Shown here: piece after piece, positions 1 through 15,874 of the stretch | How positions within the stretch are numbered: the stretch's first letter is position 1 | Layout: each line of letters begins with the position of its first letter | From: Pseudomonadota bacterium | GTDB lineage: Bacteria > Pseudomonadota > Gammaproteobacteria > Burkholderiales > Burkholderiaceae_C | DNA: 43,705 bases | NCBI GenBank assembly: GCA_021805805.1 | Contig: JAJZEB010000016.1 | Span: 1-43,705 of the forward strand | Direction of reading: 5' to 3' | Position numbers and translations under genes: made by a program | Notes under the pieces: generated by a model | Told to the model about the DNA's origin: nothing | Databases searched by the model: none | The model's input: only the letters and a program-made list of their open reading frames with translations

Positions 1-672
1 CAGCTTGGCGGACCCCGCCGGCGCGACATCTCGTACGCTGGGCAGGATCGCCGAGCGCAACGCGGCCGCAAGGAGCTCAAATCGAGCCATGCGCTCGGCG
101 TCCACTGGCGTGCCTTGCGCAAGCAGCTGACCTGCACGCGTGCGCAGCTCGCCGCGACTGTAGGTTCCCAGCAGCATCCCGATGATGGTGTTTAGCGTGT
201 CGAAGGCATCTTGCGCCTGCAGCGCGGGCGCGAGCGCCCGGGCCGCGTCACGGATCTGGTTCAGCGCCGCCTCACCCGATGCGTTGAGGATGCCCACCAG
301 GCGATCTTCCACGGCTTCACGGCCCACGCGCGCCGGGCGTTTGCCGACCACGCGGCCGAGGTTCTCCAGCAAGGCGCGTGCGCTGGAGGCCCAGTACAGC
401 CCCGTGCCACCTAGAGCGAGGTCGCCGGGTTGGGCGCTGGGGCCTCGCAGCAGCACCAGGTCGACACCTGGTAGCTGGATGGTGCGGTTGTAGCGGGTTG
501 GGTGGCTCAGTGTGACGTAGCCTTCGGACGTGAGGCCCCGGGTCAGCGCGCTGACGTGTGAGACCACGGCCTGGGGCACCAGGTAGCCGGCCAGCAGCTG
601 CCAATGACGCCGGACATAGGCGCGGATATCTTCGTCGGTGCCCGCGGTTACGTAGGCGCCTTGCGCGAGTCG
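1..672 (-). pseudogene. Fic-family protein, N-terminal half, 5'-truncated and open at the window edge
   Basis: A minus-strand frame runs open for 224 codons from a TAA stop (673-675) to the left edge and contains no plausible start codon near its beginning. It opens with RLAQGAYVTAG, which in related proteins lies after a short start segment, so the true start appears lost. It continues with GYVTLSHPTR, a basic RTIQLPGVDL stretch, LYWASSARALLENL and GEAALNQIRDAARALAP. From memory, this order matches the AbiEi-like N-terminal part of a subgroup of Fic (AMP-transferase) proteins; the catalytic HPFxxGN motif would lie beyond the window. The break abuts the intron debris at 870-1280, so rearrangement there is the likely cause. 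The Fic assignment is family recognition without a search; the missing start is seen directly. An alternative is a short product from an internal GTG. Confidence 0.6.
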
Positions 673-869: not shown

Positions 870-1280
870 TGCTTGGAGGTGGAAGTCCTCTACACACCCG
901 GCAAGGGGAAGGGTTAGCCGAAGGCAAGGGTTTCGCGGGCGACTGCGAGTCTGAAGGAAGCCGGATGGCAAAGCGCTGGCCTGCCGCGCGCGGTGCGCCG
1001 GGTGGACATCCCCAAGCCGCAAGGCGGGGTGCGGACCCTGGGCGTACCCACCGTAGTGGACCGCCTGATCCAGCAGGCCCTGCACCAAGTGATGCAGCCG
1101 ATGTTCGAGCCGACGTTCTCGGACGGCAGCGACGGCTTCCGTCCGGGCCGCAGGGTACGTCCGGGAGGGTCGGCGCTGGGTGGTGGACATGGATCTGGAG
1201 AAATTCTTCGACCGTGTGAACCACAGAGCTTCAAGCGCCTGCGGCAACGGGTCACGGACCTGTGCCTGCGGGGTCGCCGG
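870..1280 (+). mobile_element. Degenerate group II intron remnant
   Basis: Around 899-968 the sequence has the blocks GGGGAAGGGTTAGCCGAAGG, CAAGGGTTTCG and GAGTCTGAAGGAAGCC followed by GGCAAA. These resemble the conserved ribozyme region that precedes the intron-encoded protein in bacterial group II introns. It is followed by a broken reverse-transcriptase reading frame (993-1280). The 3' ribozyme domains V and VI are not visible, so the element is truncated on its right at about 1280, just before the promoter box of the first array gene. Ribozyme recognition is from memory of related introns; the RT homology is clearer. Confidence 0.65.
993..1280 (+). pseudogene. Group II intron reverse transcriptase/maturase fragment
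   Basis: Three adjacent frames carry pieces of one RT. VRRVDIPKPQGGVRTLG, DRLIQQALHQV and SDGFRPGR are in the frame from 993. YVREGRRWVVDMDLEKFF and DRVNH are in the next frame from 1156. RLRQRVTD returns to the first frame after 1227. About ten residues normally present between FRPGR and the YV segment are missing at the first frame change, so that is a deletion rather than a sequencing slip. The catalytic YADD segment, maturase and any endonuclease domain are absent. The protein cannot be functional. The order and spacing of blocks are those of LtrA-type intron proteins. Confidence 0.85.
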
Positions 1281-1281
1281 T

Positions 1282-1303
1282 GTAATGTTTCAAATAGTTA
1301 CTT
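1282..1303 (+). promoter_or_regulatory. Upstream box A of the secreted-protein array
   Basis: This 22-bp AT-rich stretch reads GTAATGTTTCAAATAGTTAC plus TT. It matches the segment at 4549-4570 at 18 of 22 positions. It lies 142 bp before the start codon of gene 1, while the other copy lies 140 bp before gene 4. It stands out from the surrounding GC-rich sequence and follows the intron debris directly. A promoter or activator site is the simplest reading; no clear -35/-10 pair can be assigned. Confidence 0.5.
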
Positions 1304-1373
1304 TCAACCGAAGGCAGCGTTGATCGGCGGTTGTCGGCGAACCGATGCGTAACGAGACGTATCAGATGAACAG

Positions 1374-1423
1374 GTGCCCGGATCGCCCGCCACCTCGCAT
1401 TCATCCCGTCCAAGGAACGTCTC
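1374..1423 (+). promoter_or_regulatory. Conserved leader of gene 1
   Basis: The block begins GTGCCCGGATCGCCCGCCAC and ends with the ribosome binding site CAAGGAACGTCTC directly before ATG. The same block, with a few changes, precedes gene 4 (4640-4688) and gene 5 (5501-5551). The conservation exceeds what a Shine-Dalgarno site needs, so it may be a 5'-UTR element or simply recent duplication of the upstream region. Confidence 0.5.
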
Positions 1424-2878
1424 ATGCATCGATCTTCGTCCGTTGTCCCACGCTGTGTCCTTGCTCTGGCCGCTGGTGCCGCGCTGCTCGGTCAGGCCGC
1501 CAGCGCGGGCACCGTTGTGCTGTCCAATCTGTTGCCGGTGGACGCGTCGTGCATTCTCGAACTGCACCGCGATCCCTCGGCCGACCCGGTGGGCGCGAAC
1601 ACGGCGAACCTGCACGCGTGGCTGCAAGGCATGACCTTGTCCAGCGGCTCGCATGCCATCGTGTTCTTGAACGATGGGCTATTGCGCGCGGAGATCCGCT
1701 TCGACGCTTACGGCAAGCCATTCACGGCATCGTCGCAATTCGGCGTCCTCGGGCTGTTTTGTCAGGTCGGACCGATCGGTGGCGGCGGCCCGCAGCACGG
1801 AAGTATGTTCAACAATCCCTCGCCCCAGGTACTTGGCAATGTCGGAATGCTCCCGCCGCCCGGCGCCGGACCGCTCCAGGGCATCCATACGCTGCACACC
1901 TATACGCCGACCGATCGCACCGACTTCATGCTCCGGCTTCGCCCGGCGAATCCGGCAGCGACCGCGGCGGATTTGTGGGCCGGCGCGCCGCTGGTCGTCG
2001 ACCTGAGCGCGATGCCGCTGCTGTACGGCGGCGATCCGGCGCAGGACCAGCCGGTCAATCTCGGTCGCTACAACCTGGTTTCGCCGGCTGCCAACCCGGG
2101 GATTTTCAACGTGCAGGCTTTCAACGCGGCGATGGGGAACCCACCAATCATCAATGCGCCTGTCGGCAACGCGCCTGTCGGCAACGCGCCTGTCGGCAAC
2201 GCGCCTGTCGGCAACGCGCCGGCTGGCAACGCGCCGGCTGGCAATGCGCCGGCTGGCAATGCGCCGGCTGATGGCGCGCAGGTCGGCAATGCACCAGTCG
2301 CCAACGCGCCGGTGGGCGACGCACCAGTTGCCGAGGCGCCGGTTCGCAAAGCATCGGCGATCGAGCCACCGTATGGCGACTCACTGTTTGCCGACTCGCC
2401 GTTTGGGAAAGCACCGCGTCGCGACTCGCCGTTTTCCGACTCACCGTTCCTGGACGCGCCGTTTGGCAACGCACCGTTTGACGAAGAAGCGATGGTCGTC
2501 GCACCGTTTGACAACGTGCCGGAAGCGGACGCCCTCGTTGTCGAAGCGTTGTTTGGCAACGCGCCGTTTGGCAACGCGCCGTTTGGCAACGCGCCGGTCG
2601 CCGACGCACGGGTTGTCGACGCGGCGTTTGGCAACGCGTCGTTCAGCAACGTGCCGGTCGCCAAGGCGCCGGTTGCCAACGCGCCGGTTGCCAACGCGCC
2701 GGTTGCCAACGCGCCGGTCGGCGGCCGACCGTCGGGTGACGCGATCGATATCGACGCGTTGCTCGCCAACGCGCCACGCGACGGCGCGCACGACGCCTCG
2801 GCGGACGGGTCGTCGGACGCCTCGCACTGGTTCGCCGAGCAGCTCGCGGAATTGCAGAACCCGGCTTCGAAGCACTGA
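1424..2878 (+). CDS. Array gene 1: secreted two-cysteine protein (subtype I) with long pentapeptide-repeat tail
   Basis: This is a 484-residue exported protein of a family I do not recognise. Residues 1-28 are a Sec signal peptide ending GQAASA, and the mature protein begins GTVVLSNLLPVDASC. Conserved cysteines are C43 and C113. The core (29-240) shares FDAYGKPFTAS, YTPTDRTDFMLRLRP, AGAPLVVDLSAMPLL and LGRYNL with genes 4 and 5. Residues 244-433 are 38 consecutive pentapeptides (NAPVG, later NAPFG/DSPFG and NAPVA types) with no indel. The protein ends in an acidic region and HWFAEQLAEL. The start is fixed by AAGGA at 1413-1417 and the signal peptide. It leads the first block, with gene 2 99 bp downstream. 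Export is well supported; function is unknown. Confidence 0.85.
   Translation: MHRSSSVVPRCVLALAAGAALLGQAASAGTVVLSNLLPVDASCILELHRDPSADPVGANTANLHAWLQGMTLSSGSHAIVFLNDGLLRAEIRFDAYGKPFTASSQFGVLGLFCQVGPIGGGGPQHGSMFNNPSPQVLGNVGMLPPPGAGPLQGIHTLHTYTPTDRTDFMLRLRPANPAATAADLWAGAPLVVDLSAMPLLYGGDPAQDQPVNLGRYNLVSPAANPGIFNVQAFNAAMGNPPIINAPVGNAPVGNAPVGNAPVGNAPAGNAPAGNAPAGNAPADGAQVGNAPVANAPVGDAPVAEAPVRKASAIEPPYGDSLFADSPFGKAPRRDSPFSDSPFLDAPFGNAPFDEEAMVVAPFDNVPEADALVVEALFGNAPFGNAPFGNAPVADARVVDAAFGNASFSNVPVAKAPVANAPVANAPVANAPVGGRPSGDAIDIDALLANAPRDGAHDASADGSSDASHWFAEQLAELQNPASKH
2153..2722 (+). repeat. 15-bp tandem repeat, 38 in-frame units
   Basis: The unit is 15 bp (for example AACGCGCCTGTCGGC) and runs 38 times without an indel, encoding pentapeptides. 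The first eight units are nearly identical at the DNA level. The middle units are diverged and rich in PF (DSPFG, NAPFG), and the last return to NAPVA/NAPVG. The mix of fresh and old copies points to repeated expansion by slippage or unequal crossing-over while the reading frame was maintained. Confidence 0.95.
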
Positions 2879-2977
2879 TCCCGACAGCTGCTTGCGGTCG
2901 GACCGACAAGCGGCTCCACGCGCCGCCGCGCCTGCGCGTCGGCGCGCACATCTCTTCATCCACTCCAGGAGTTCACC

Positions 2978-3733
2978 TTGCCTGCATTCCCACTTCGCGC
3001 CGCCGTGCACACCATCGGCCTGGCCGCCGGCGCCCTGGTCGCAGCCGACGCCTTCGCCCAGGGCCGGATCAGCGTGGTCAACGCGCTGCCCGGGGCAGCG
3101 CGCTGCCAGTTCACCGTCAGCACCGCAGCGGGTAGCTTCGACCTGCCGCCGACCGTGCTGCAGGCCAACCAGGTCGTCCATGTGCATGTTCCGCCAGGCG
3201 CGTTGCCGGCGCGACACGACACCCTGCCGGACGGCACCGGTTACAGCTACTCGCCGTCCTACCGCGACATGATCGTGCGTTGCGAGACCGGACCCAACGC
3301 GACGGGCACGGACTGGGACCAGTACCACGAAATCACCTTCGACGACGCGCGCCCGGACCCTGCCCAGGCCGACGGATCGGACGGCGAATCCAGTCAGGCG
3401 TACAGCTACACGAGCTCGCAGGAGCGTCAGGCGCAGTATCCGCTGACCACGGTGACGCCGAGCGACCAGACCGGTTGGGTCATCCGCGTGGTGCCGCAAC
3501 ACGCCGGCGTCACCGCGGCCGACCTGCGGCTCGGCGCCCCGATCGTCGCCGAGCTGTGGGCTCTGGCGCTGCGGCCCGACGGCAACGTGGTGCAGCAGCC
3601 GGCGATCAGCGTCGGCCGCTTCCCGATGTGGCTCGACGAGGGCTCGGACGTCGAGGAAAGCTGGGAGGTGCCCCTGAGCGGCAATGGCTGGCAGTCGCCG
3701 CCCTCCGACGACGACGCGTCGTCGGCCAGCTGA
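2978..3733 (+). CDS. Array gene 2: secreted two-cysteine protein (subtype III)
   Basis: This is a 251-residue exported protein of the array family, function unknown. The start is a TTG, preceded by AGGAG six bases upstream, and it gives a clean signal peptide (1-27, ending VAADAFA). The mature protein starts QGRISVVNALPGAARC. Cysteines C43 and C102 match the family pair. VPPGALPAR and YPLTTVTPSDQTGWVIR match gene 7 best (VALPPGTLPAR, YPLTSVTPSDATAFAIR), which defines subtype III. LRLGAP and VGRFPM follow. The tail is acidic and serine-rich (DEGSDVEESWE, SDDDASSAS). It is 9 bp from gene 3 and surely co-transcribed with it. Confidence 0.85.
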   Translation: MPAFPLRAAVHTIGLAAGALVAADAFAQGRISVVNALPGAARCQFTVSTAAGSFDLPPTVLQANQVVHVHVPPGALPARHDTLPDGTGYSYSPSYRDMIVRCETGPNATGTDWDQYHEITFDDARPDPAQADGSDGESSQAYSYTSSQERQAQYPLTTVTPSDQTGWVIRVVPQHAGVTAADLRLGAPIVAELWALALRPDGNVVQQPAISVGRFPMWLDEGSDVEESWEVPLSGNGWQSPPSDDDASSAS

Positions 3734-3742
3734 GGCCGCGCC

Positions 3743-4426
3743 ATGAGACAGGCAATATGCATTCATCTGGTCGGCGCATCGGTGGCACTGGTCTGCGCCG
3801 CATGGTCCGGCCACGCCTCGGCGTACGGCACCATCGAAGTGGTCAACAGCCTGCCGGTCGAGGTGCGCTGCTCCGTGTCCGGGGCGCATCTCAGCGAGGT
3901 CGGGCCGCTGCGCGTCGGCAACCTGTACGTCCCGCCCGAAGTCATCCCGGCCTTCGCCCGCATCAGCATCGAGGTATCTCCGCTGTGGCCGGCGTCGCCG
4001 GTCGCCGAGCAGCCGCCGCACCATACCTCGGCCGCGTTCTCCAACCTGCGGCTGACCTGCGAAACCACGCGCCAGGCTTTCGGCGAGCCGTGGGGCCATC
4101 GCTACAGTGCCGAGTTCCATGCCGAGCCCAGCGGTGCCGTCGTCGACGACTGCGCCTCCGATGTCACGGACGAAAATCCGCATTGCAGCGGCGCGCACGT
4201 GTTCACCTACCCGCTGACGGTGGTGGTGCCGACCGGGATGACCGAGTTCACGCTGCAATTGCTGCCGCACGATCCGGCCGCCACCGCGCTGGAGCTGCAG
4301 CAGGGCGCCGCGCTCGACGTGCACCTGAGCGCCTATGCGCTGGGGCGCTACGGCGTGCGCCTGCACGCGCTGCCGCTGGACCTGGGCCGATTCGCGCTGC
4401 ACCGCGATGCGTCGCTGTCCGATTGA
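3743..4426 (+). CDS. Array gene 3: secreted two-cysteine protein (subtype II)
   Basis: This 227-residue exported protein belongs to the array family, function unknown. Signal peptide 1-27 ends SGHASA, and the mature start is YGTIEVVNSLPVEVRC. C43 and C106 are the family cysteines; two more occur in VVDDCASD and DENPHCSG. Landmarks are FSNLRLTCE, RYSAEFHAEP, VFTYPLTVVVPTGMTEF, LQLLPHDPAATALEL, LSAYAL and LGRFALHRDASL. The closest relative is gene 6, which shares the last motif almost exactly. It closes the first block and is followed by a strong hairpin (4435-4465). Confidence 0.85.
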   Translation: MRQAICIHLVGASVALVCAAWSGHASAYGTIEVVNSLPVEVRCSVSGAHLSEVGPLRVGNLYVPPEVIPAFARISIEVSPLWPASPVAEQPPHHTSAAFSNLRLTCETTRQAFGEPWGHRYSAEFHAEPSGAVVDDCASDVTDENPHCSGAHVFTYPLTVVVPTGMTEFTLQLLPHDPAATALELQQGAALDVHLSAYALGRYGVRLHALPLDLGRFALHRDASLSD

Positions 4427-4434
4427 CCTGCTTC

Positions 4435-4465
4435 GCCCCGCGGCGACCTCGCGCGTCGCGGGGGC
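4435..4465 (+). terminator. GC-rich hairpin ending the first array block
   Basis: GCCCCGCG (4435-4442) can pair with CGCGGGGGC (4457-4465) with one bulged base. It lies 9 bp after the stop of gene 3. There is no T-run, so it is at best a weak intrinsic terminator or a 3'-end stabiliser. Confidence 0.4.
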
Positions 4466-4548
4466 GGACGCGCAGGCGCCTGGCCGCCACGGTGCGCACG
4501 CGCGGCTGCACGGGATCCGTGCGGTCGTTCCGCAGCCGCGATGGCCGG

Positions 4549-4570
4549 GTGATTTTTCAAAATGTTACTT
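4549..4570 (+). promoter_or_regulatory. Upstream box B of the array (before gene 4)
   Basis: GTGATTTTTCAAAATGTTAC plus TT is the partner of the box at 1282-1303 and lies 140 bp before the gene 4 start. A second shared patch follows closer in: AACGTAACC here and GCGTAACGAGACGT before gene 1. Conserved spacing makes it a good promoter or operator candidate for the second block. Confidence 0.5.
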
Positions 4571-4639
4571 CGGGCGCAGTTGCGCGTACTTGCTGCGCAC
4601 CGCTAGAAACAAAACGTAACCAACGGGGTCGTACTCGAG

Positions 4640-4688
4640 GTGCGCGGATGGCCCGCCACCTTGTTCCACTTCCTGCAAGGAGCGTCTG
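4640..4688 (+). promoter_or_regulatory. Conserved leader of gene 4
   Basis: It begins GTGCGCGGATGGCCCGCCAC and ends GCAAGGAGCGTCTG before ATG at 4689. It aligns end to end with the leaders of gene 1 and gene 5. Confidence 0.5.
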
Positions 4689-5414
4689 ATGCCTCGCCTC
4701 CATTCCGTCGTCCTGGGCCGCATGGCCAGCGTGATCGCCTGCACGGCGCTTGTCGGCCAAGCTGCGGTCGCCGGCACCATCGTGCTGCACAACCAATTGC
4801 CGTTTCCCGCGGCGTGCGTCGTCGAGACCGTGGCCGCCGATGCCCTGGGCATCGGCGGTGCGAATCCGCAGGACTACACGCGCCTGCTGGACACGCAACT
4901 GGCCGCGGGTGCCGAACAGGTCGTCGTCGTCGCGGACGGGACCTGGCCAGCCGAGCTCGGCTTCGACGCCCAGGGCGTGCCATTCACCGCGTCGCGGCAG
5001 TTCGGCGCCTTGTCGGTGCGCTGTCACCTGGTGTCGGACGGTGCCGATGGCAGCGAGTACCGCGCGCATTTCATCCATGCCGGCGGCAACCCGGGGCACG
5101 CGCAGCGCGTCGGCGCGGGAAGTCCGGCCGGGCACCATGCGCTGCAAAGCTATGCACCGACCGATCGCACGGCGTTCACCATCCAGCTGCGCCCGGCGCG
5201 GCCCACGGCCGACGCCGAGGAACTGTTGACCGGCGCGCCGCTGAGCCTTGCGCTGTTCGCCATGCCGCTGCTGCACGACGGATCGCCGCTGCAGATCCAG
5301 GCGCTCGATCTGGGCCGCTACGACATGGCCAGATCGCCGGGTGACCCGGCGACGGCGTCGGCCGCGGCCTGGAACCGGCTTGGTGCCCGGTTCCGAGCGC
5401 AGCTGACACCCTGA
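4689..5414 (+). CDS. Array gene 4: secreted two-cysteine protein (subtype I)
   Basis: This 241-residue exported protein resembles the core of gene 1 without the repeat tail. Signal peptide 1-28 ends GQAAVA; the mature start is GTIVLHNQLPFPAAC. Cysteines are C43 and C112. It has FDAQGVPFTASRQFGAL, YAPTDRTAFTIQLRP, TGAPLSLALFAMPLLHDGS and LDLGRYD. It ends soon after, in a short alanine-rich stretch. It opens the second block, with its own upstream box and leader. Function is unknown; comparison with gene 1 shows the pentapeptide tail was added to, or lost from, one member. Confidence 0.85.
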   Translation: MPRLHSVVLGRMASVIACTALVGQAAVAGTIVLHNQLPFPAACVVETVAADALGIGGANPQDYTRLLDTQLAAGAEQVVVVADGTWPAELGFDAQGVPFTASRQFGALSVRCHLVSDGADGSEYRAHFIHAGGNPGHAQRVGAGSPAGHHALQSYAPTDRTAFTIQLRPARPTADAEELLTGAPLSLALFAMPLLHDGSPLQIQALDLGRYDMARSPGDPATASAAAWNRLGARFRAQLTP

Positions 5415-5417
5415 GCC

Positions 5418-5434
5418 GGCGCCGTCGCGGCGCC
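5418..5434 (+). terminator. Short perfect hairpin after gene 4
   Basis: GGCGCCG (5418-5424), loop TCG, CGGCGCC (5428-5434) form a perfect 7-bp stem four bases after the gene 4 stop. No T-run follows. It may attenuate read-through from gene 4 into gene 5. Confidence 0.3.
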
Positions 5435-5500
5435 GCGACGACCAGCGGCGCGTTGCCATGCCGCGTGGGTGTGCAGCGCGCGTCTTCCCCCGCAAAACGG

Positions 5501-5551
5501 GTGCGCGGATGGTCCCGCCGCCTTGCCTGCACTCTTGTGAAGGAACCTTTC
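5501..5551 (+). promoter_or_regulatory. Conserved leader of gene 5
   Basis: It begins GTGCGCGGATGGTCCCGCCG and ends GAAGGAACCTTTC before ATG at 5552, matching the leaders of genes 1 and 4. The distal AT-rich box is absent here because gene 4 occupies that distance. Confidence 0.45.
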
Positions 5552-6313
5552 ATGCCACGATCCACAACTGTCATCGCACGCCGCGTCGCCACGCTGATGG
5601 CTTGCGCGGTGCTCTTCGATCAAGCTGCCAGCGCGGGCATCGTCGCGCTGCACAATGATTTGCCCGTTCCGGCGTTCTGTGCCGCGGAGACGTTCTTCTC
5701 CGATGCCCCACGCGCCAACGGCCAGCCGGGCCCCCAATACCTGCAGCTGTTCAGCGCGCAGCTTGCGCCCGGCGCCAGTCAGGTCGTGCATGTGCCGGCG
5801 GGGACCTGGCCATCGTCGGTCAGCTTCGACGCCGATGGCGTTCCGTTCAGCTCCTCACGGTACTTCAGCACCCTGTTGCTGAGCTGTGGCACCCGTCCGG
5901 CAGGCGCCGGCGGCAGCGAGTACGTGGTGCGCCTGATCAACACCGAAGGCTATGTGGCGCCGGAATCCGTGCACGGCAGCGACTCGACCTTCCGCATCGG
6001 TCCGGAAATCTTCGATGGCAACTACGAGCTCAAGAGCTACACGCCGAGCGATGACACGGCTTTTGTCATGCGCCTGGGTGCGCGCGATGCCCTGGCCACC
6101 GCGGAGCAGCTGCGGGCCGGCGCGCCGCTGAGCATCGCAGTGAACGCCATGCCGCTGCTGCCCGATGGCTCGGCGCTGTTTGACGAAGCGATAGCGCTGG
6201 GTCGCTACGCGCTGGTCACGCCGCAGGACGACTCCGGTGACGTGTCGTCGGCGGCTTCGCGCAGCTTCAGCGCGCAGCTCTCGGCGCCGCAGGTGCTCGC
6301 ACCGGCGCTCTGA
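5552..6313 (+). CDS. Array gene 5: secreted two-cysteine protein (subtype I)
   Basis: This 253-residue exported protein is of unknown function. The ATG at 5552 is chosen over one 99 bp upstream because it follows AAGGAA and gives a 28-residue signal peptide (ending DQAASA) aligning with genes 1 and 4. The mature start is GIVALHNDLPVPAFC. Cysteines are C43 and C112, the same positions as in gene 4. FDADGVPFSSSRYFSTL, YTPSDDTAFVMRLG, AGAPLSIAVNAMPLLPDGS and ALGRYALV follow. It has a serine/alanine-rich end. Confidence 0.85.
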   Translation: MPRSTTVIARRVATLMACAVLFDQAASAGIVALHNDLPVPAFCAAETFFSDAPRANGQPGPQYLQLFSAQLAPGASQVVHVPAGTWPSSVSFDADGVPFSSSRYFSTLLLSCGTRPAGAGGSEYVVRLINTEGYVAPESVHGSDSTFRIGPEIFDGNYELKSYTPSDDTAFVMRLGARDALATAEQLRAGAPLSIAVNAMPLLPDGSALFDEAIALGRYALVTPQDDSGDVSSAASRSFSAQLSAPQVLAPAL

Positions 6314-6370
6314 CGCGGGGGCCGGGCACAGCCCGGCCCTGCGACCAGCGACTCTCTCCAGACAAGGAAG

Positions 6371-6402
6371 ACCTCATGCAAGACCTCATGCAAGACCTCA
6401 AG
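6371..6402 (+). repeat. 12-bp tandem duplication across the gene 6 start codon
   Basis: ACCTCATGCAAG occurs at 6371-6382 and again at 6383-6394, followed by a partial third copy (ACCTCAAG). It duplicates the start codon and gives the N-terminus MQDLMQDL. Confidence 0.9.
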
Positions 6403-7131
6403 CATGGTCGTGCCCGCCACCACATCGCCGTCGCGGCGCTGGCGTGCAGCGCCTGGTGCAGCCAGGCCGCCGCGCACGGCACCGTCGAGATCCACAACAG
6501 CCTGCCGATCGACGTGCAATGCGCCGTGCTCGGCACCCATCGCAGCGCCGAGGGGCCGCTGCAGCATGCCCAACTGTTCCAACCCGCGGTCGCGATCCCC
6601 GCGTTCACGTCGCTGAGCATCGCGGTGCCGTGGACGGTGTGGCCGCCGCGGCCCGAACCCGACCAGCGCTGGCACCGCGTGTCGGACGCGTTTTCCCATC
6701 TGCGCCTGGTCTGCGAAAGCGGCTTCGATCCCGCGACCGGGAGATGGCGCCAGCTGCACAGCGCCGAGTTCTACGCCGACCTGGCGGTCGACGGCGCCGA
6801 TGCCGACGCGTCGCTGCCGACTGCGGGCAGCCGGCACCGCAGCGGCGAGCATGTGTTCGCCTACCCGTTGACCGTGGTCACGCCGACCGCGTCGACCGAG
6901 TTCATCGTGCAACTGGTGCCGCACGAGGCGACCGTGACGATGGCGCAACTGGAGCAGGACGCGACGATCGATGCCCGACTGGCGGCGTTTGCACTGCACC
7001 CGGACGGTGAGCGGCTGCACGCCGAGCCGCAGCTGCTGGGACGCTTTGCGCTGCACCGCGACGCGTCGTTCGACGACGCGAGCGGGTGGCAGTCCGACAG
7101 TGCGCAGTACGACTGCTCCGCCTCCGATTGA
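6376..7131 (+). CDS. Array gene 6: secreted two-cysteine protein (subtype II)
   Basis: This 251-residue exported protein is the closest relative of gene 3. AAGGAAG at 6365-6371 fits the ATG at 6376; a second in-frame ATG at 6388 is a duplicate start. The signal peptide ends SQAAA, and the mature start is HGTVEIHNSLPIDVQC. The first family cysteine is C49 and the second lies in FSHLRLVCESG. It also has LHSAEFYADL, VFAYPLTVVTPTASTEF, VQLVPHEATVTMAQL and LLGRFALHRDASFDD. The extra cysteine seen in genes 3 and 7 before the YPLT motif is absent; here the segment reads SRHRSGEH. Function is unknown. Confidence 0.85.
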   Translation: MQDLMQDLKHGRARHHIAVAALACSAWCSQAAAHGTVEIHNSLPIDVQCAVLGTHRSAEGPLQHAQLFQPAVAIPAFTSLSIAVPWTVWPPRPEPDQRWHRVSDAFSHLRLVCESGFDPATGRWRQLHSAEFYADLAVDGADADASLPTAGSRHRSGEHVFAYPLTVVTPTASTEFIVQLVPHEATVTMAQLEQDATIDARLAAFALHPDGERLHAEPQLLGRFALHRDASFDDASGWQSDSAQYDCSASD

Positions 7132-7157
7132 CCGAGCCTTTTCGAGAGATTTCCATC

Positions 7158-8027
7158 ATGAAAAAACCTGTTCTTTCCAATATGCAGCGTGCTGCGATCT
7201 GGCTCGCAGCGATGACCGTCTGCACGCCACAGGCGCAGGCGCACGGTTCGATCCCGCTGGAAAACGAGCTCGCGCTGGCTGTGGACTGCGCGCTGTACCT
7301 GACGCGTCGCGACGCACACGGCATGGATCGAGGCCGCTTGCTGCAGTACCAGGTCGGCCCGGGGCAGGAGTTCACCGTCGCCCTGCCGCCCGGCACCCTG
7401 CCTGCGCGTGCTGCGTTCGCGCCTGCCGCGCACCACGTCTCCGACGCCTTTTCCAGCCTGCAGCTGTTCTGCCGGATCGCCGGCGATGCGGACATGGGGC
7501 CGGTGTATTCCGCGGAGTTCTACGCCGCCCTCGATGGGTCGCTCCCCGGCGTCGAAGCCGAGCTGTCGTCGATGCACAGCGACAACCCGCATTGCACCGG
7601 TCTGCACGAGCTGTCCTACCCGCTGACCTCGGTCACGCCGAGCGACGCGACCGCATTCGCGATCCGGCTGGCCGCCCACGACCCGTTCGTCACCCGCGAA
7701 CAATTGCAGCTCGGCGCGCCCGTCGAAGCCTACCTGATCGCGTACGCGCTCGACCCGGCAGGGGCGCGGCTGGAGCACACGCGCCTGATGCGGGGTCCGT
7801 TCCCGCTGCAGCTGCTCGGAATCGGGCAGCTGTCCGACGCCACCGGTGCGTCGCTGGCGTCGTCCGGAACCGAGTTGTCCGACCCGGGTTTTCCGACGGT
7901 GGTGCTGGACGACGACTCCGACAGTTCGCTGTCGGAGCGTCTCTCGGTGCAGATGACCGAGGACGAGCCTGAGCACGAGCACGAGCTTGCGGCCGTGCTC
8001 ATGAACGACGGGTCGGACTCGCCCTGA
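7158..8027 (+). CDS. Array gene 7: secreted two-cysteine protein (subtype III) with acidic tail
   Basis: This is a 289-residue exported protein, the last of the array. ATG at 7158 gives MKKPVLSN and a signal peptide ending TPQAQA; an earlier ATG at 7086 lies inside gene 6. The mature start is HGSIPLENELALAVDC. C44 and a cysteine in LQLFCRIAG are the family pair; DNPHCTGLHELSYPLT parallels gene 3, while LPPGTLPAR and VTPSDATAFAIR parallel gene 2. The last ~60 residues are strongly acidic (LDDDSDSSLSE, TEDEPEHEHEL), which could bind cations or basic surfaces. A perfect palindrome follows the stop. Confidence 0.85.
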   Translation: MKKPVLSNMQRAAIWLAAMTVCTPQAQAHGSIPLENELALAVDCALYLTRRDAHGMDRGRLLQYQVGPGQEFTVALPPGTLPARAAFAPAAHHVSDAFSSLQLFCRIAGDADMGPVYSAEFYAALDGSLPGVEAELSSMHSDNPHCTGLHELSYPLTSVTPSDATAFAIRLAAHDPFVTREQLQLGAPVEAYLIAYALDPAGARLEHTRLMRGPFPLQLLGIGQLSDATGASLASSGTELSDPGFPTVVLDDDSDSSLSERLSVQMTEDEPEHEHELAAVLMNDGSDSP

Positions 8028-8081: not shown

Positions 8082-8339
8082 TCAGCGCGGTACGGCGAAC
8101 GTTCCCGGCGGCGAGTGCTGCGCCGCAGAACCCGCTTCGGCCGGCGCCGCGGTGCCGAGCAACAGCGCGCCGAGCGCCAGCAGGGTCAGCGTCGCAGCCT
8201 GCCACGCGCGCTGCCTGGCGCGGCGCACCGGCGGTGCGAGCAGCGCGGCGATGCGCCGACGCCGCAGGCGGCGGTCGGCACCGGGCAGGCTCGGAAAGGC
8301 GATCGGGCGAGCCGTGCGCAGGTCGGCCTTGTTCGGCAT
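8082..8339 (-). CDS. Small single-pass membrane protein, hypothetical
   Basis: This is an 85-residue minus-strand frame. The ATG at 8339 is preceded by GGAGAA at a good distance and starts MPNKADLRTARPIAF; a longer version from 8366 lacks such a site. A very basic stretch (RRLRRRRIAALL, RRARQRAW) precedes one hydrophobic segment (about 50-69, TLTLLALGALLLGTAAPAEA), so the N-terminus should be cytoplasmic. Codon use is like that of the neighbouring genes. I recognise no family. In GC-rich DNA a chance ORF remains possible. Confidence 0.5.
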   Translation of the reverse strand: MPNKADLRTARPIAFPSLPGADRRLRRRRIAALLAPPVRRARQRAWQAATLTLLALGALLLGTAAPAEAGSAAQHSPPGTFAVPR

Positions 8340-8573
8340 CGGATTCTCCATTGAGGGTAGGGGCAATGCGCGGTTCGACCGCGCCGTCGCGGTGAAGTTC
8401 CACGCAACGACGCGGCTAAAACCGCTGTTGTCGTAACAAAGCGTGTTTGCGCAGTGCAGCAGCTAGAATCGAGGGTCCGCCGCGCCGCGCACGCGTGCCG
8501 CGGCCGGATGTCCGATCAACCTCTGTGTGGCCAGCCGCCCGCGGCGCGCGGACGGCGCCACCGCCCGCCCGCC

Positions 8574-13120: not shown

Positions 13121-15874
13121 GTGAATCCGCGCAAGTCACCGACGCATCGCGTACCACGTTCCGGTCTGTGCCGGGCGATCGCCGCCTTGTTCCTGGCGGG
13201 AGGCGCCATGGCGCAGGCGCAGGCGCTGGAACTGGGCGCAGCCAGCGTGCAGTCGGCGCTGGGCCAGCCGTTGCGCGTGGTCATCGCGATGGACCCGCTC
13301 AGCGCCAGCGAGGCGGCAAGCCTGAAGATCGCGCTCGCGCCCGCAGCGGACTTCGCCGCGCGCCAGCTCAGCTACAGCCACGCGCTCGACCAGTTGCGCG
13401 TGACCATCGAGCACGGCGCCGATGGCCGCGTCTGGCTTCAGTTGCGCGGCAACCAGCCGGTCGATGATCCCTATCTGGACGTGTTGCTGCGCGCGACCTG
13501 GTCCGGAGGCGAGCTGACGCGCGACTACACCTTGTTGTTCGACCCGCCCGGTTTCCATGAGCCTGGGCCTCCGACCCTGGTTGCGCCACAGGTCGCCGGC
13601 GGGCAGACCCAGGCTGCTGCTGCGGTGGCGCCTGCGCCTTCGACGCGGCGTGCCGAAGGGCAGGTCCGGCGGCATGGCGCGGCGCGTTCCAGTGCGCCTG
13701 CGACGGCTTCTGCTGCGGCGACCTACCGCGTGCGCCCGGGCGACACGCTGAGCACGATCGCGCGCCGGGTCCAGGTCGAGAACGTATCGCTGGATCAGAT
13801 GCTCGTCGCCTTGTACAGGGCCAACAGCGGCGCGTTCATCGATCACAACATGAACTTGCTGCGCGCCGGCGCGGTGCTGCGCCTGCCGGCCGCAGGGGCT
13901 GCGGGCGCGGTTCCCGATGACGCTGCGCAGCGCGAGGTGGTCGCGCAAAGCCGCGATTTCCAGGCTTACCGCGAACGCCTTGCGCAGCTCGCCGGACACG
14001 CCACGCCGCAGCCTTCGCACGCATCGCGGCGCAGCGCAGGGCGCATCGTCGCCGAGGTGCGCGAGCCTGCCGGTGCGGCATCGGCGCCGCGCTCGCGCCT
14101 GAAGTTGAGCAAAGCCGCGGTCGGCGCCCAAAGTGCCGAGGCGAACCGCATTGCCAGGCAGGAACAGGCTGCGGCGATCGCCGCGAAGCTGGCTGCGGCG
14201 CGCGCCAGCGTGGCCGAACTGTCCAGGCTGGAGGCCAGTGCCGCACAGGCCGAGGCGAGCGCTTCGGCGTCCCGCCCGGCGCCGGCGCAGGCGCCGGTGC
14301 AAGCGCCGGTGCAGGCGCCGGTGCAGGCGCCGGTGCAGGCGAAGCCGCGCGTGGCGGCGCCTGCACCTGCGGCGCCGCGGGCGCATTCCGTGGCCTCGGC
14401 TGCGGCGCACAAGGCAGCCCCGAAGCTGCCCAGATGGATCGCGCCGCCGGCGGCGCGACCGCGCCCTGCCGAGCCGAGCGTCAGCTGGAGCGACCGACTG
14501 CTCGCCAACCCGATGCTGCTGCCGGCCGCCGGCGGCGTGCTGGTCCTGCTCTTGCTGCTGCTGTGGCTGCGCCGCAGGGCGGCATCCAAGGCGCCTCGCG
14601 ACAGTTCGGTGTTCGACAGCCGGCTCACGAGCGCCGACAGCTTTTTCGGTGGCAGCGGTGGCGAGCGAGTCGACACGCGCAACAGCACGCTGGGCTCGTC
14701 GATCGCCTACACGCCCAGCCAGCTCGATGCCGGCGACGTCGACCCGGTGGCCGAAGCCGATGTCTATCTGGCCTACGGCCGTGACCTGCAGGCCGAGGAA
14801 ATCCTCAAGGAGGCGCTCAAGCAGCACCCGGACCGCAATGCGGCTCGAATCAAGCTGCTTGAAATCTACGCCAAGCGCAAGGACGTGCGTTCGTTCGAAA
14901 TGACCGCGGCCGAGCTGTTCACGCTGACCGAAGGCACTGGCCCGGACTGGAAGAAGGCGCAGGACCTGGGGCGTCACCTCGATCCGGTCAACCCGCTGTA
15001 CCACAACACCCAGCCGCCGAGTTCGCTGAACAATCCGTCGACCATGCCTTCGAGCGGATTCGAACCCGCCGCATCGGAGCTCGGTGACGCGGCACCAACG
15101 CTGCCGGCGACCGAGCTGATGGCCGCCGGAACGCGCAGCGTGCCCAGCGCGCCGACGGACGCGGGCGGACTCGACCTCGACCTCGACCTCGCCGGCAGCG
15201 GTGCCGGCGCTGGCAGCGAGCCGGCCGTGCCGCCGGCGGAGCTCGATTTCGATCTTGGCGGAGTCGCGCCGGCCGGGCTTGCGACGCCTGCCGCCGGGAT
15301 CGAGCCCGAACCCCGTGCCGTGCCGGAGCATGCGCCGCTGGAGTTCGACCTCAGCGGGCTGTCGCTGGACCTGACTCCTCCTGCGGGTTCGGTTCCGGCA
15401 GATGCACAACCCACGCAGCAGCCTGTGCTCGACGGCGATCTCGAGCTGGTCGCCGTTGACGACGCCGACGAAGCCGCTGCCTCGCCCGCGCCAGCGTTCG
15501 AGCAGCCGCTGCGCGACGAGCCGCACGATGCGGAACAGCCAGCCGGCGCATCGCCTGTCGAGGAATCGCACCTCGAGGAATCGCACCTCGATGAATTGCA
15601 CCTCGATGAATTGCACCTCGATGAATTGCCCGCCGGGCCGGAGCACGCCGTCGAGCCCGCGGCCGATGGCCATGCGCTCGAAGCCGCGCCATCGGGTGGC
15701 CCGGTCCATGCGCAGGAGCCTGCCGAGGCAGTCGACACCCGATTCGAGCTGATCGAGGAATGCCGCGCGCTCGGCGATGTCGACACGGCGCGCGACCTGT
15801 TGCGCGAAATCGTCGCCGAGTCCGACGGGCCCTCGCGCGCACGCGCCGAGGCGATGCTGGCCGAGCTGGGTTGA
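13121..15874 (+). CDS. fimV: FimV-type polar/peptidoglycan-binding protein
   Basis: FimV proteins organise cell poles, type IV pili and twitching in related bacteria. This one has 917 residues from a GTG start. A signal peptide ends AMAQAQA. The conserved N-terminal domain starts LELGAASVQSALGQPLRV, with SYSHALDQLRVT and LDVLLRATWSGGELTRDYTL. A LysM domain (about 201-250) starts TYRVRPGDTLSTIARRVQV. An alanine-rich coiled-coil-like region carries QAPV repeats. A single membrane helix (about 465-487, GGVLVLLLLLLWLRR) precedes a cytoplasmic part with a TPR-like block (DVYLAYGRDLQAEEILKEAL), a long acidic linker, and the C-terminal FimV motif FELIEECRALGDVDTARDLL. truA starts 40 bp downstream. 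Confidence 0.92.
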   Translation: MNPRKSPTHRVPRSGLCRAIAALFLAGGAMAQAQALELGAASVQSALGQPLRVVIAMDPLSASEAASLKIALAPAADFAARQLSYSHALDQLRVTIEHGADGRVWLQLRGNQPVDDPYLDVLLRATWSGGELTRDYTLLFDPPGFHEPGPPTLVAPQVAGGQTQAAAAVAPAPSTRRAEGQVRRHGAARSSAPATASAAATYRVRPGDTLSTIARRVQVENVSLDQMLVALYRANSGAFIDHNMNLLRAGAVLRLPAAGAAGAVPDDAAQREVVAQSRDFQAYRERLAQLAGHATPQPSHASRRSAGRIVAEVREPAGAASAPRSRLKLSKAAVGAQSAEANRIARQEQAAAIAAKLAAARASVAELSRLEASAAQAEASASASRPAPAQAPVQAPVQAPVQAPVQAKPRVAAPAPAAPRAHSVASAAAHKAAPKLPRWIAPPAARPRPAEPSVSWSDRLLANPMLLPAAGGVLVLLLLLLWLRRRAASKAPRDSSVFDSRLTSADSFFGGSGGERVDTRNSTLGSSIAYTPSQLDAGDVDPVAEADVYLAYGRDLQAEEILKEALKQHPDRNAARIKLLEIYAKRKDVRSFEMTAAELFTLTEGTGPDWKKAQDLGRHLDPVNPLYHNTQPPSSLNNPSTMPSSGFEPAASELGDAAPTLPATELMAAGTRSVPSAPTDAGGLDLDLDLAGSGAGAGSEPAVPPAELDFDLGGVAPAGLATPAAGIEPEPRAVPEHAPLEFDLSGLSLDLTPPAGSVPADAQPTQQPVLDGDLELVAVDDADEAAASPAPAFEQPLRDEPHDAEQPAGASPVEESHLEESHLDELHLDELHLDELPAGPEHAVEPAADGHALEAAPSGGPVHAQEPAEAVDTRFELIEECRALGDVDTARDLLREIVAESDGPSRARAEAMLAELG
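14288..14341 (+). repeat. 12-bp tandem repeat in fimV (QAPV)
   Basis: CAGGCGCCGGTG (one copy with CAA) is repeated four times with a partial fifth, encoding QAPVQAPVQAPV. It lies in the periplasmic linker between the coiled coil and the membrane helix, and its length is likely to vary among strains. Confidence 0.85.
15560..15631 (+). repeat. 15-bp tandem repeat in the fimV acidic linker
   Basis: Units of the type GATGAATTGCACCTC / GAGGAATCGCACCTC occur four times plus a partial copy, encoding E/D-E-S/L-H-L pentapeptides before DELPAG. The repeat is histidine-rich within an acidic cytoplasmic linker. Confidence 0.85.

Follow-up and report, generated by a model that had tools for sequence, protein, structure and literature searches.

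Within the window, the whole 43,705-nucleotide stretch of DNA analyzed, open reading frame calls give seven consecutive genes (T1 to T7), all on the plus strand and together spanning positions 1424 to 8027. A reading made from the sequence alone had proposed seven exported paralogs pointing the same way, and these are what we find. Three belong to subfamily A, T1 (1424..2878), T4 (4689..5414) and T5 (5552..6313), and four to subfamily B, T2 (2978..3733, starting at 2978 or 2981), T3 (3743..4426), T6 (6376..7131) and T7 (7158..8027), in a tree from which C195 was excluded. The T1 protein ends in five-residue (15-nucleotide) repeats of the NAPVG type encoded at about 2077-2805, T2 has an acidic Ser/Asp tail and T7 a long acidic tail. 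T2 starts 99 nucleotides past T1 and has no leader of its own, with T3 a further 9 nucleotides past T2; T6 lies 62 nucleotides past T5 and T7 26 nucleotides past T6. The T5 start was set at the ATG at 5552, in a frame that is open from 5453.

At the contig end, part of a Fic-family reading frame occupies 1..579 of the minus strand. It shares an exact stretch of at least 100 nucleotides with contig C160, where the frame continues beside gltA; the C160 part matches Fic (PF02661, E 3.5e-7), and the piece in the window has no Pfam match. A broken reverse transcriptase, presumably of the group II intron type, lies at 993..1352 on the plus strand. Its RVT_1 match (E 9e-6, 26 bits) is below the cut-off of 29.6 and is confined to positions 1-50 of the 205 in the profile. 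On the right flank are genes that we take from their translations to be leuC-leuD-leuB-asd. The minus strand carries at 8082..8351 a small reading frame for an exported or membrane protein of 89 amino acids that ends in PPGTFAVPR and has no Pfam match, with an ECF/sigma-E-like promoter (8374..8400, GAACTT...GTCGAA) 49 nucleotides before it. Its counterparts at the same position in two relatives are 50% (G019) and 47% (G008) identical.

An exported family and its distribution

Alignment of the seven proteins gives 17 invariant columns, among them two cysteines, so that the pair noted earlier is indeed present in 7/7. The other motifs listed in the sequence-only reading are present in general but looser than claimed. 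The mature start GTIxVxNxLP becomes GRISVVNALP in gene 2 and GSIPLENELA in gene 7, and in the C-terminal core gene 4 has YAPTD, gene 6 LEQDA in place of LxxGA and gene 7 RGPF in place of LGRF. With about 28 N-terminal residues cut off and a search space of 2e8, every one of the seven has a partner within the array at E ≤ 2e-14. Chance similarity, which the same reading had named as one of two outcomes that would undo its claim, is thus excluded. The proteins probably contain a single disulfide and are possibly rich in beta structure, for which there is a weak hint of periodicity in 58-69% of windows from a run made with no control protein.

The core of these proteins matches nothing above cut-off in Pfam (the seven window proteins, 17 of A2, 10 remote members and 10 of group iii), in NCBIfam (the seven and 20 further members) or in PADLOC and PHROGs (the seven). 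A sequence-profile search of the PDB gave nothing significant, the best matches being E 0.93 to an antibody chain for A2 and E 3.9 for A11. An extensin or pentapeptide assignment for T1 was rejected, since the repeat tail alone matches and does so below the Pfam cut-offs. A known family, the second refuting outcome named in the sequence-only reading, is therefore ruled out within Pfam, NCBIfam, PHROGs, PADLOC and the PDB, and the unrecognized exported family that had been proposed is real. We also rejected phage or plasmid cargo: one phage query had no match, alignment A9 had no relative in viral contigs, and of four plasmid queries three had no match and the fourth two chance-level matches (E 0.6 and 0.9).

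The array occupies the junction between gltA and leuC in four sister genomes, and this junction is gene-free in 12/12 other congeneric loci read, from 24 such genomes. Profile A2 finds the family in 4/28 congeneric genomes, the four closest by LeuC, and the iterated profiles A7 and A10 also give 4/28; the clade restriction is defined by these three profiles, the group iii profile A11 lying outside its scope. The searches of 400 genomes scored up to six candidates per genome, and two of them each gave weak matches in four genomes of other genera (E 0.001-0.01). We rejected these on inspecting L024-L027 and L190-L191, with L189 and L192 left out: the matches are short and fall within other genes or on the strand opposite to them. 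We call the host "Thiomonas-like" on the basis of its LeuC (85% to a Thiomonas MAG); nearer records may exist. At the level of sequence we regard the family, its export signals, its duplications and its insertion site at the gltA/leuC junction as established.

The survey for similar arrays that had been suggested revealed that the same four genomes contain additional arrays, made up of remote relatives. The superfamily totals 51 genes in several arrays, a count that leaves out a fragment in G008 and includes a broken gene, a gene truncated where its contig ends and three c61x genes. Two cysteines lie 40-85 residues apart in 50/51 members and an N-terminal hydrophobic stretch is present in 48/51; most precursors have about 160-290 residues. 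Because the first links between subgroups ran through the signal peptides, the profile comparison was redone with mature chains, first globally (30 column shuffles) and then in local mode (60), leaving C195 and G025c out of the leuC-array profile. This weakened the link between the leuC array and c61 (local-mode score 22.7, against a shuffle maximum of 18.6) and left that to c61x unsupported (15.2 against 22.8, also in local mode). With profiles free of the signal peptide, hhalign gave probabilities to the leuC array of 68% for solo, 43% for iii and 4% for c61. By these scores the apparent links of the subgroups to the leuC array are moderate in strength. In the genome that the window comes from, profile A10 at E 0.1 detected no member of group iii, though one may still exist there.

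The array genes have diverged rapidly, with dN of 0.41-0.55 compared with 0.02-0.05 for leuC, and dN/dS of 0.46-0.89 over five cross-species pairs. The small reading frame keeps pace with the array in divergence (dN 0.23-0.54), and a FimV-like sequence diverges too (0.32). High dN/dS, together with two broken members, one truncated beside TnpB in G025 and the other the G008 fragment, might point to a functionless, decaying expansion at an insertion hot spot. The ratios are nevertheless below 1, and long frames, both cysteines, signal peptides and leaders have been kept across large divergence, so we consider decay very improbable.

The leader hairpin and the promoter-like motif

A hairpin is conserved in ten leaders of the leuC array, 40-52 nucleotides before the start codon (-50 to -52 in nine, -40 in one). 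In the window it precedes T1 (1373..1394, 51 nucleotides before the ATG), T4 (4639..4660, 50 nucleotides) and T5 (5500..5522, 52 nucleotides, with one extra C), each on the plus strand. Pairing is preserved in 94% of cells, against 34-70% in slid controls, and the four genomes hold six mismatch-free matches, all in leuC-array leaders. Counted by pair the covariation is thin, with two-sided changes in 2/10 pairs, a result equaled by 106/500 shuffles. Counted by cell it is found in 5/100 (reached by 4/500 shuffles, with 0-2 cells in slid controls), and the covariation score of 0.196 was reached in 2/500 shuffles. No Rfam family matches the leader above gathering score in the window or L019-L023, the sole match there being a group II intron in L019. 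A conserved hairpin was suspected in the group iii array leaders too, and was rejected on finding that their folding is not uniform.

About 34 nucleotides before the hairpin, 9/10 leaders have an ECF/sigma-E-like promoter, with the GAAC -35 element and TC-containing -10 element 16-18 nucleotides apart that characterize RpoE/ECF regulons. The exception is T5, where no promoter match was found in front of the hairpin. The T1 promoter lies at 1339..1366 (GAAC-N18-ATCAGA) and that of T4 at 4606..4633 (GAAA-N18-GTCGTA), both on the plus strand; the latter is imperfect and not an exact match to the pattern. In a test run with a fixed offset on the leaders that defined the pattern, nine of ten reach a score of 6 or more out of 7, and shuffling gave at most two leaders (2000 rounds, fixed offset) or three (500 rounds, any offset). 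The one comparison independent of those leaders is with other members of the superfamily, where the pattern precedes 17/36 genes against 4/103 control genes, the paralogs not being statistically independent. The 36 are all members not belonging to the leuC array (37) except L188:4580; a wrong start was used for one c61 head gene. Of the 17 sites, one or more (L185:2201) falls within the neighboring gene. The exact relaxed pattern fits 6/14 leuC-array genes, and the whole window contains 11 matches of the sigma-E-like pattern, one of them the site before the small reading frame.

Between 1200 and 8600 we found no sigma-70 promoter; of intrinsic terminators the search gave a single candidate, on the opposite strand, compared with 3.3 expected. 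In the stretches read, we noticed no gene for a sigma or anti-sigma factor. As features of the DNA, the leader hairpin and the promoter-like motif are clear. The idea of a dedicated system, advanced in the sequence-only reading, is strengthened by 51 genes in four genomes and by the shared ECF-type promoter pattern.

Possible roles of the array

We tentatively favor, at somewhat short of even confidence, the view that the array is a branch of a new clade-specific exported superfamily under envelope-stress control, tandemly duplicated, fast-diverging and acting at or outside the envelope. An RpoE (sigma-E)-type ECF sigma factor would start transcription where the 5' arm of the hairpin begins. 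The mRNA would then begin with a stem-loop, which could stabilize it or tune its translation. Transcription units would include T1-T2-T3 and T4; T5-T6-T7 would form one with a hairpin and no promoter match. Export would be through Sec, and disulfide formation would follow in the periplasm; during stress the proteins would then serve, at the cell envelope or beyond it, as a varied set of surface or matrix proteins. Copies would have been gained by duplication followed by fast sequence divergence. A surface, matrix or interaction role is suggested rather than observed; a sigma-E-type promoter is just as compatible with proteins that work in the periplasm.

Tandem, diverging, exported paralogs might instead be periplasmic inhibitor or immunity proteins, each neutralizing a different incoming or self-made cell-wall toxin; a different toxin per paralog would favor many diverging exported copies. 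In G008 and G019 the array is adjoined by a gene for a C92-type amidase that has a signal peptide of its own, and the gltA/leuC slot also gathers Fic and HipA genes. Yet the C92 gene points the other way and is absent from the genes called in the window and in the G025 stretch, PADLOC gave no match, and reading by eye, with profile searches for some of the neighbors, picked out nothing effector-like immediately next to the paralogs in the stretches covered. We think inhibitors unlikely. The C92 gene itself (Peptidase C92, YiiX/YaeF, PF05708) is not a member of the paralog family; against the cut-off of 27 it passes in G019 (28.4) and falls just under in G008 (26.3). A sigma-E-like promoter was sought for it and no full match was found.

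Polymerizing subunits with a beta-sandwich fold, pilin-like or otherwise, that form a surface fiber or coat would account for the mature start GxIxVxN....C and the later S..F..LxLxC, a layout that recalls the disulfide arrangement of chaperone-usher pilins. Chaperone-usher pilins and spore-coat-U proteins resemble the array proteins in export, in size and in N-terminal disulfide layout. They differ in that the array proteins have no profile match: neither Fimbrial nor spore-coat-U was matched in Pfam up to E = 1 by window, A2, remote or group iii proteins, and no chaperone or usher was noticed by eye beside any array read. This makes such subunits quite unlikely.

Returning to envelope-stress control, a bolder form of it, possible though doubtful, is that within this Thiomonas-related clade some 50 secreted, single-domain proteins have arisen across four species as one repertoire. 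In several separate arrays under envelope-stress control, with a shared promoter type and a 5' stem-loop at one locus, these would have diversified in a free-living bacterium like a surface-antigen or coat-protein repertoire. A large family that is confined to one clade and has no known relatives usually gives no handle on its function; here the promoter pattern and leader hairpin provide two testable ones, by which the orphan family becomes a candidate regulon. If that were confirmed, a free-living bacterium would be seen to have built a large, diversified set of exported proteins for use under envelope stress out of a recent invention, and the fold of the family would be one worth solving.

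Comparison with known regulatory systems

Leaders of the ompA type place a 5' stem-loop on the mRNA of an exported protein. The array leaders are alike in that the mRNA is predicted to open with their hairpin, and differ in sequence. The array promoters share their layout, GAAC-N16..18-NTC, with RpoE (sigma-E) regulons, as represented in the part of a Shewanella promoter table that we consulted, for example GAACTT...GTCCGA before degQ (PMC4336711). The named RpoE targets in that part of the table are mostly genes for folding, proteases, outer-membrane proteins and LPS assembly (PMC4336711). The arrays differ from these regulons in that the putative targets are an unnamed, multiplied family of secreted proteins, for which RpoE dependence is a candidate.

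The tandem genes and their products

Between 1424 and 8027 on the plus strand lie seven consecutive open reading frames encoding exported proteins, T1 to T7 (1424-2878, 2978-3733, 3743-4426, 4689-5414, 5552-6313, 6376-7131 and 7158-8027). T1-T7 can be aligned across their entire core, where 17 columns are invariant, two of them being the cysteines. The sequence-only reading of seven exported paralogs pointing in one direction is confirmed. Their mutual resemblance is significant; with about 28 N-terminal residues removed, the best partner of every chain within the array reaches E = 2e-14 or lower (search space 2e8). T1 ends in a C-terminal tail of 5-residue repeats, acidic Ser/Asp-rich tails close several members, and the family sequences give a weak hint of beta strands, read with no control protein alongside.

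The proposal that this is an unrecognised family stands. There is nothing credible for the core of T1-T7 in Pfam, NCBIfam, PHROGs or PADLOC, where the T1 repeats are the sole source of matches and fall below the Pfam cut-offs. Scanned against Pfam, the 17 chains of the leuC-array type (alignment A2) gave nothing better than E = 0.03, and the A2 profile found no relative in the PDB, the best match being an antibody chain (E = 0.93). No such family appears in the titles and abstract openings listed for Thiomonas on genomic islands or on sigma factors, biofilm and secretion, and no paper was listed on tandem paralogous secreted proteins, which does not establish absence from print.

In a tree of 16 chains (A2 without C195) a single branch with support of 100/99 parts subfamily A (T1, T4, T5 and relatives) from subfamily B (T2, T3, T6, T7 and relatives). 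The window members do not cluster by genome, with five label changes versus a shuffled mean of 5.6.

The family, its export signals and duplication, the insertion site, the leader and the promoter-like motif are seen directly in the sequence. The exported products would fold around one disulfide, and may serve as a diversified set of surface or matrix proteins, working at the envelope or outside it. Less probably, such exported paralogs are periplasmic inhibitors or pilin-like proteins.

The gltA/leuC junction

The contig belongs to a 3.27 Mb draft genome (G000), and because its nearest named LeuC, from a Thiomonas MAG, is 85% identical, we infer that the genus is Thiomonas or close to it. The left end of the contig has an identical run of 100 nt or more in common with the end of another, C160, that bears gltA and the remainder of the Fic gene. 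This places gltA first, followed by the Fic gene, the reverse-transcriptase debris, the array and leuC. A group II intron end (RF00029) at L019:7989-8060 (minus strand), near a contig end, lies directly upstream of two C128 paralogs; reverse-transcriptase debris likewise precedes the window array.

A search of 28 congeneric genomes with profile A2 gives family members in four of them. The gltA/leuC junction is also filled by family members in the three congeners, alongside a HipA gene in G019, TnpB in G025 and a 98-residue ORF with no Pfam match in G008. The G019 and G008 junctions further hold a C92-type amidase in opposite orientation, a 412-448 residue protein and a small ORF. The amidase gene followed by that for the 412-448 residue exported protein, which has no Pfam match, is found in two of the four species, at L021:9241-11633 (minus) and L022:5863-8210 (plus). 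In the window the small ORF, at 8082-8351 (minus), encodes an exported or membrane protein ending in PPGTFAVPR and has its own sigma-E-like promoter at 8374-8400 (minus); counterparts of the ORF occupy the corresponding position in G019 and G008.

Junctions were read in 12 of the 24 congeneric genomes lacking the family, and in all 12 gltA and leuC are neighbours separated by 112-261 nt with no gene called between; for four of these the leuC start was taken from a separate leuC search, the stretch stopping just inside leuC. The four family-bearing genomes are the closest by LeuC (93-97% identity among themselves); the others reach at most 90% to the window's LeuC, one having no LeuC match. Elsewhere, no convincing member came from 399 genomes of the family, 399 of the order and 398 of the phylum, with at most six candidates scored in each.

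Between species the flanking leuC has dN of 0.02-0.05 and dS of 0.19-0.36. Five array pairs have dN of 0.41-0.55 and dS of 0.62-0.89, although some pairs may be paralogs, inflating both; dN/dS is 0.46-0.89, below 1. The C92 and 412-448 residue genes (dN 0.18-0.19) and a FimV-like sequence (0.32) lie between leuC and the array, and the small ORF diverges at the pace of the array (0.23-0.54). The N-terminal region that we take to be FimV-like (window 13121-14050, against L022:3-935) is 59% identical between G000 and G008, and the nearby asd 92%. Since some members are broken in G025 and G008, copies are both gained and lost.

Remote relatives in the same four genomes

A profile extended with L141, a weak hit of the A2 search, picked up remoter members, all of them in the four family-bearing genomes. 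Solo genes lie near a presumed cspA and a PAS histidine kinase gene in G000 and G025, and between what are presumably metK and ahcY in G008. Arrays of four (G000) and three (G025) genes adjoin a CheB/CheR-PAS-GGDEF-EAL gene, assigned by profile search in G000, or in G025 its look-alike. Two of these other loci adjoin c-di-GMP (GGDEF-EAL) or PAS histidine kinase genes (L174:8403-12977, L176:2-3157, L176:5032-7422). A third profile, A10, gave weak matches (E = 2e-8 to 0.06) in further arrays, group iii: seven genes in G008 adjoining pyridoxamine-oxidase-like and S30AE genes (neighbours profile-searched in this genome), seven and four on two G019 contigs with look-alikes of both neighbours, and six on a G025 contig with no other gene called. 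Group iii has no relative in Pfam (10 of the 20 members in A11 scanned), NCBIfam or the PDB.

The survey for similar arrays thus located further arrays of remote relatives, and the superfamily totals 51 genes (G000 15, G019 13, G008 10, G025 13). Two cysteines 40-85 residues apart occur in 50 and an N-terminal hydrophobic stretch in 48, the other three probably having mis-called starts.

Mature-chain profiles of the groups were compared locally, each against 60 column shuffles (maximum in brackets). Group iii scores 53.6 with the solo genes (18.3; probability 95%), 30.3 with group c61 (19.5) and 31.9 with c61x (21.2); the solo genes score 36.9 with c61 (21.4) and 24.6 with c61x (17.9), and c61 scores 30.3 with c61x (19.0). 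The leuC array scores 36.9 with the solo genes (18.7; probability 68%), 32.7 with group iii (17.1; 43%) and 22.7 with c61 (18.6; 4%); its link to c61x is unsupported, at 15.2 under a shuffle maximum of 22.8. By these scores the groups form a well-linked chain, but the leuC array is tied to the others directly by moderate links.

Leader hairpins and a promoter-like motif

Alignment of upstream regions reveals a bulged hairpin, GGTG-N-GCGGA-NNN-TCCGC-CRCC. For T1, T4, T5 and six counterparts from the three relatives it lies 50-52 nt ahead of the ATG; in a tenth gene the distance is 40 nt. Pairing holds in 94% of cells, versus 34-70% with the partner slid. Changes on both sides occur in 2 of 10 pairs, a number reached by 106 of 500 shuffles; the number of cells so changed was reached by 4 of 500 and the covariation score by 2 of 500. 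Conservation of the hairpin is thus clear, and its covariation suggestive. The four genomes contain six mismatch-free matches to the pattern, all within these arrays; matches with one or two mismatches are common elsewhere in them. Because T2, T3, T6 and T7 lack the hairpin and begin 9-99 nt after the neighbouring gene, the arrangement suggests the transcription units T1-T2-T3, T4 and T5-T6-T7.

A motif GAAC-N17/18-GTC precedes the hairpin by 33-34 nt, with 9 of 10 leaders scoring at least 6 of 7 and the T5 leader lacking it. Shuffles gave at most two leaders at that offset (2000 rounds) and three at any offset (500 rounds), for a motif defined on these very leaders. The relaxed pattern GAAC-N16..18-NTCNNA, derived from the leuC-array leaders and sought within 160 nt upstream, precedes 17 of 36 other superfamily genes versus 4 of the 103 remaining genes in these stretches (Fisher 1e-8, the paralogs not being independent); one of the 17, before L185:2201, sits inside a neighbouring gene. 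For one c61 head gene (L174) the pattern is seen only once the gene's start is corrected. The stricter GTC form precedes 7 of 36 versus 1 of 103. Within the leuC array itself the exact relaxed pattern occurs in 6 of 14 genes, the eight misses being T2, T3, T6 and T7, which lie inside units, T4, T5 and two G025 genes (G025b, G025c).

A transcription start 6-7 nt past the -10 element would place the hairpin at the 5' end of the mRNA, and an RpoE-type sigma factor may drive the array units under envelope stress. The array motif shares its layout with the RpoE-dependent Shewanella promoters that PMC4336711 lists, GAACTT...GTCCGA for example.
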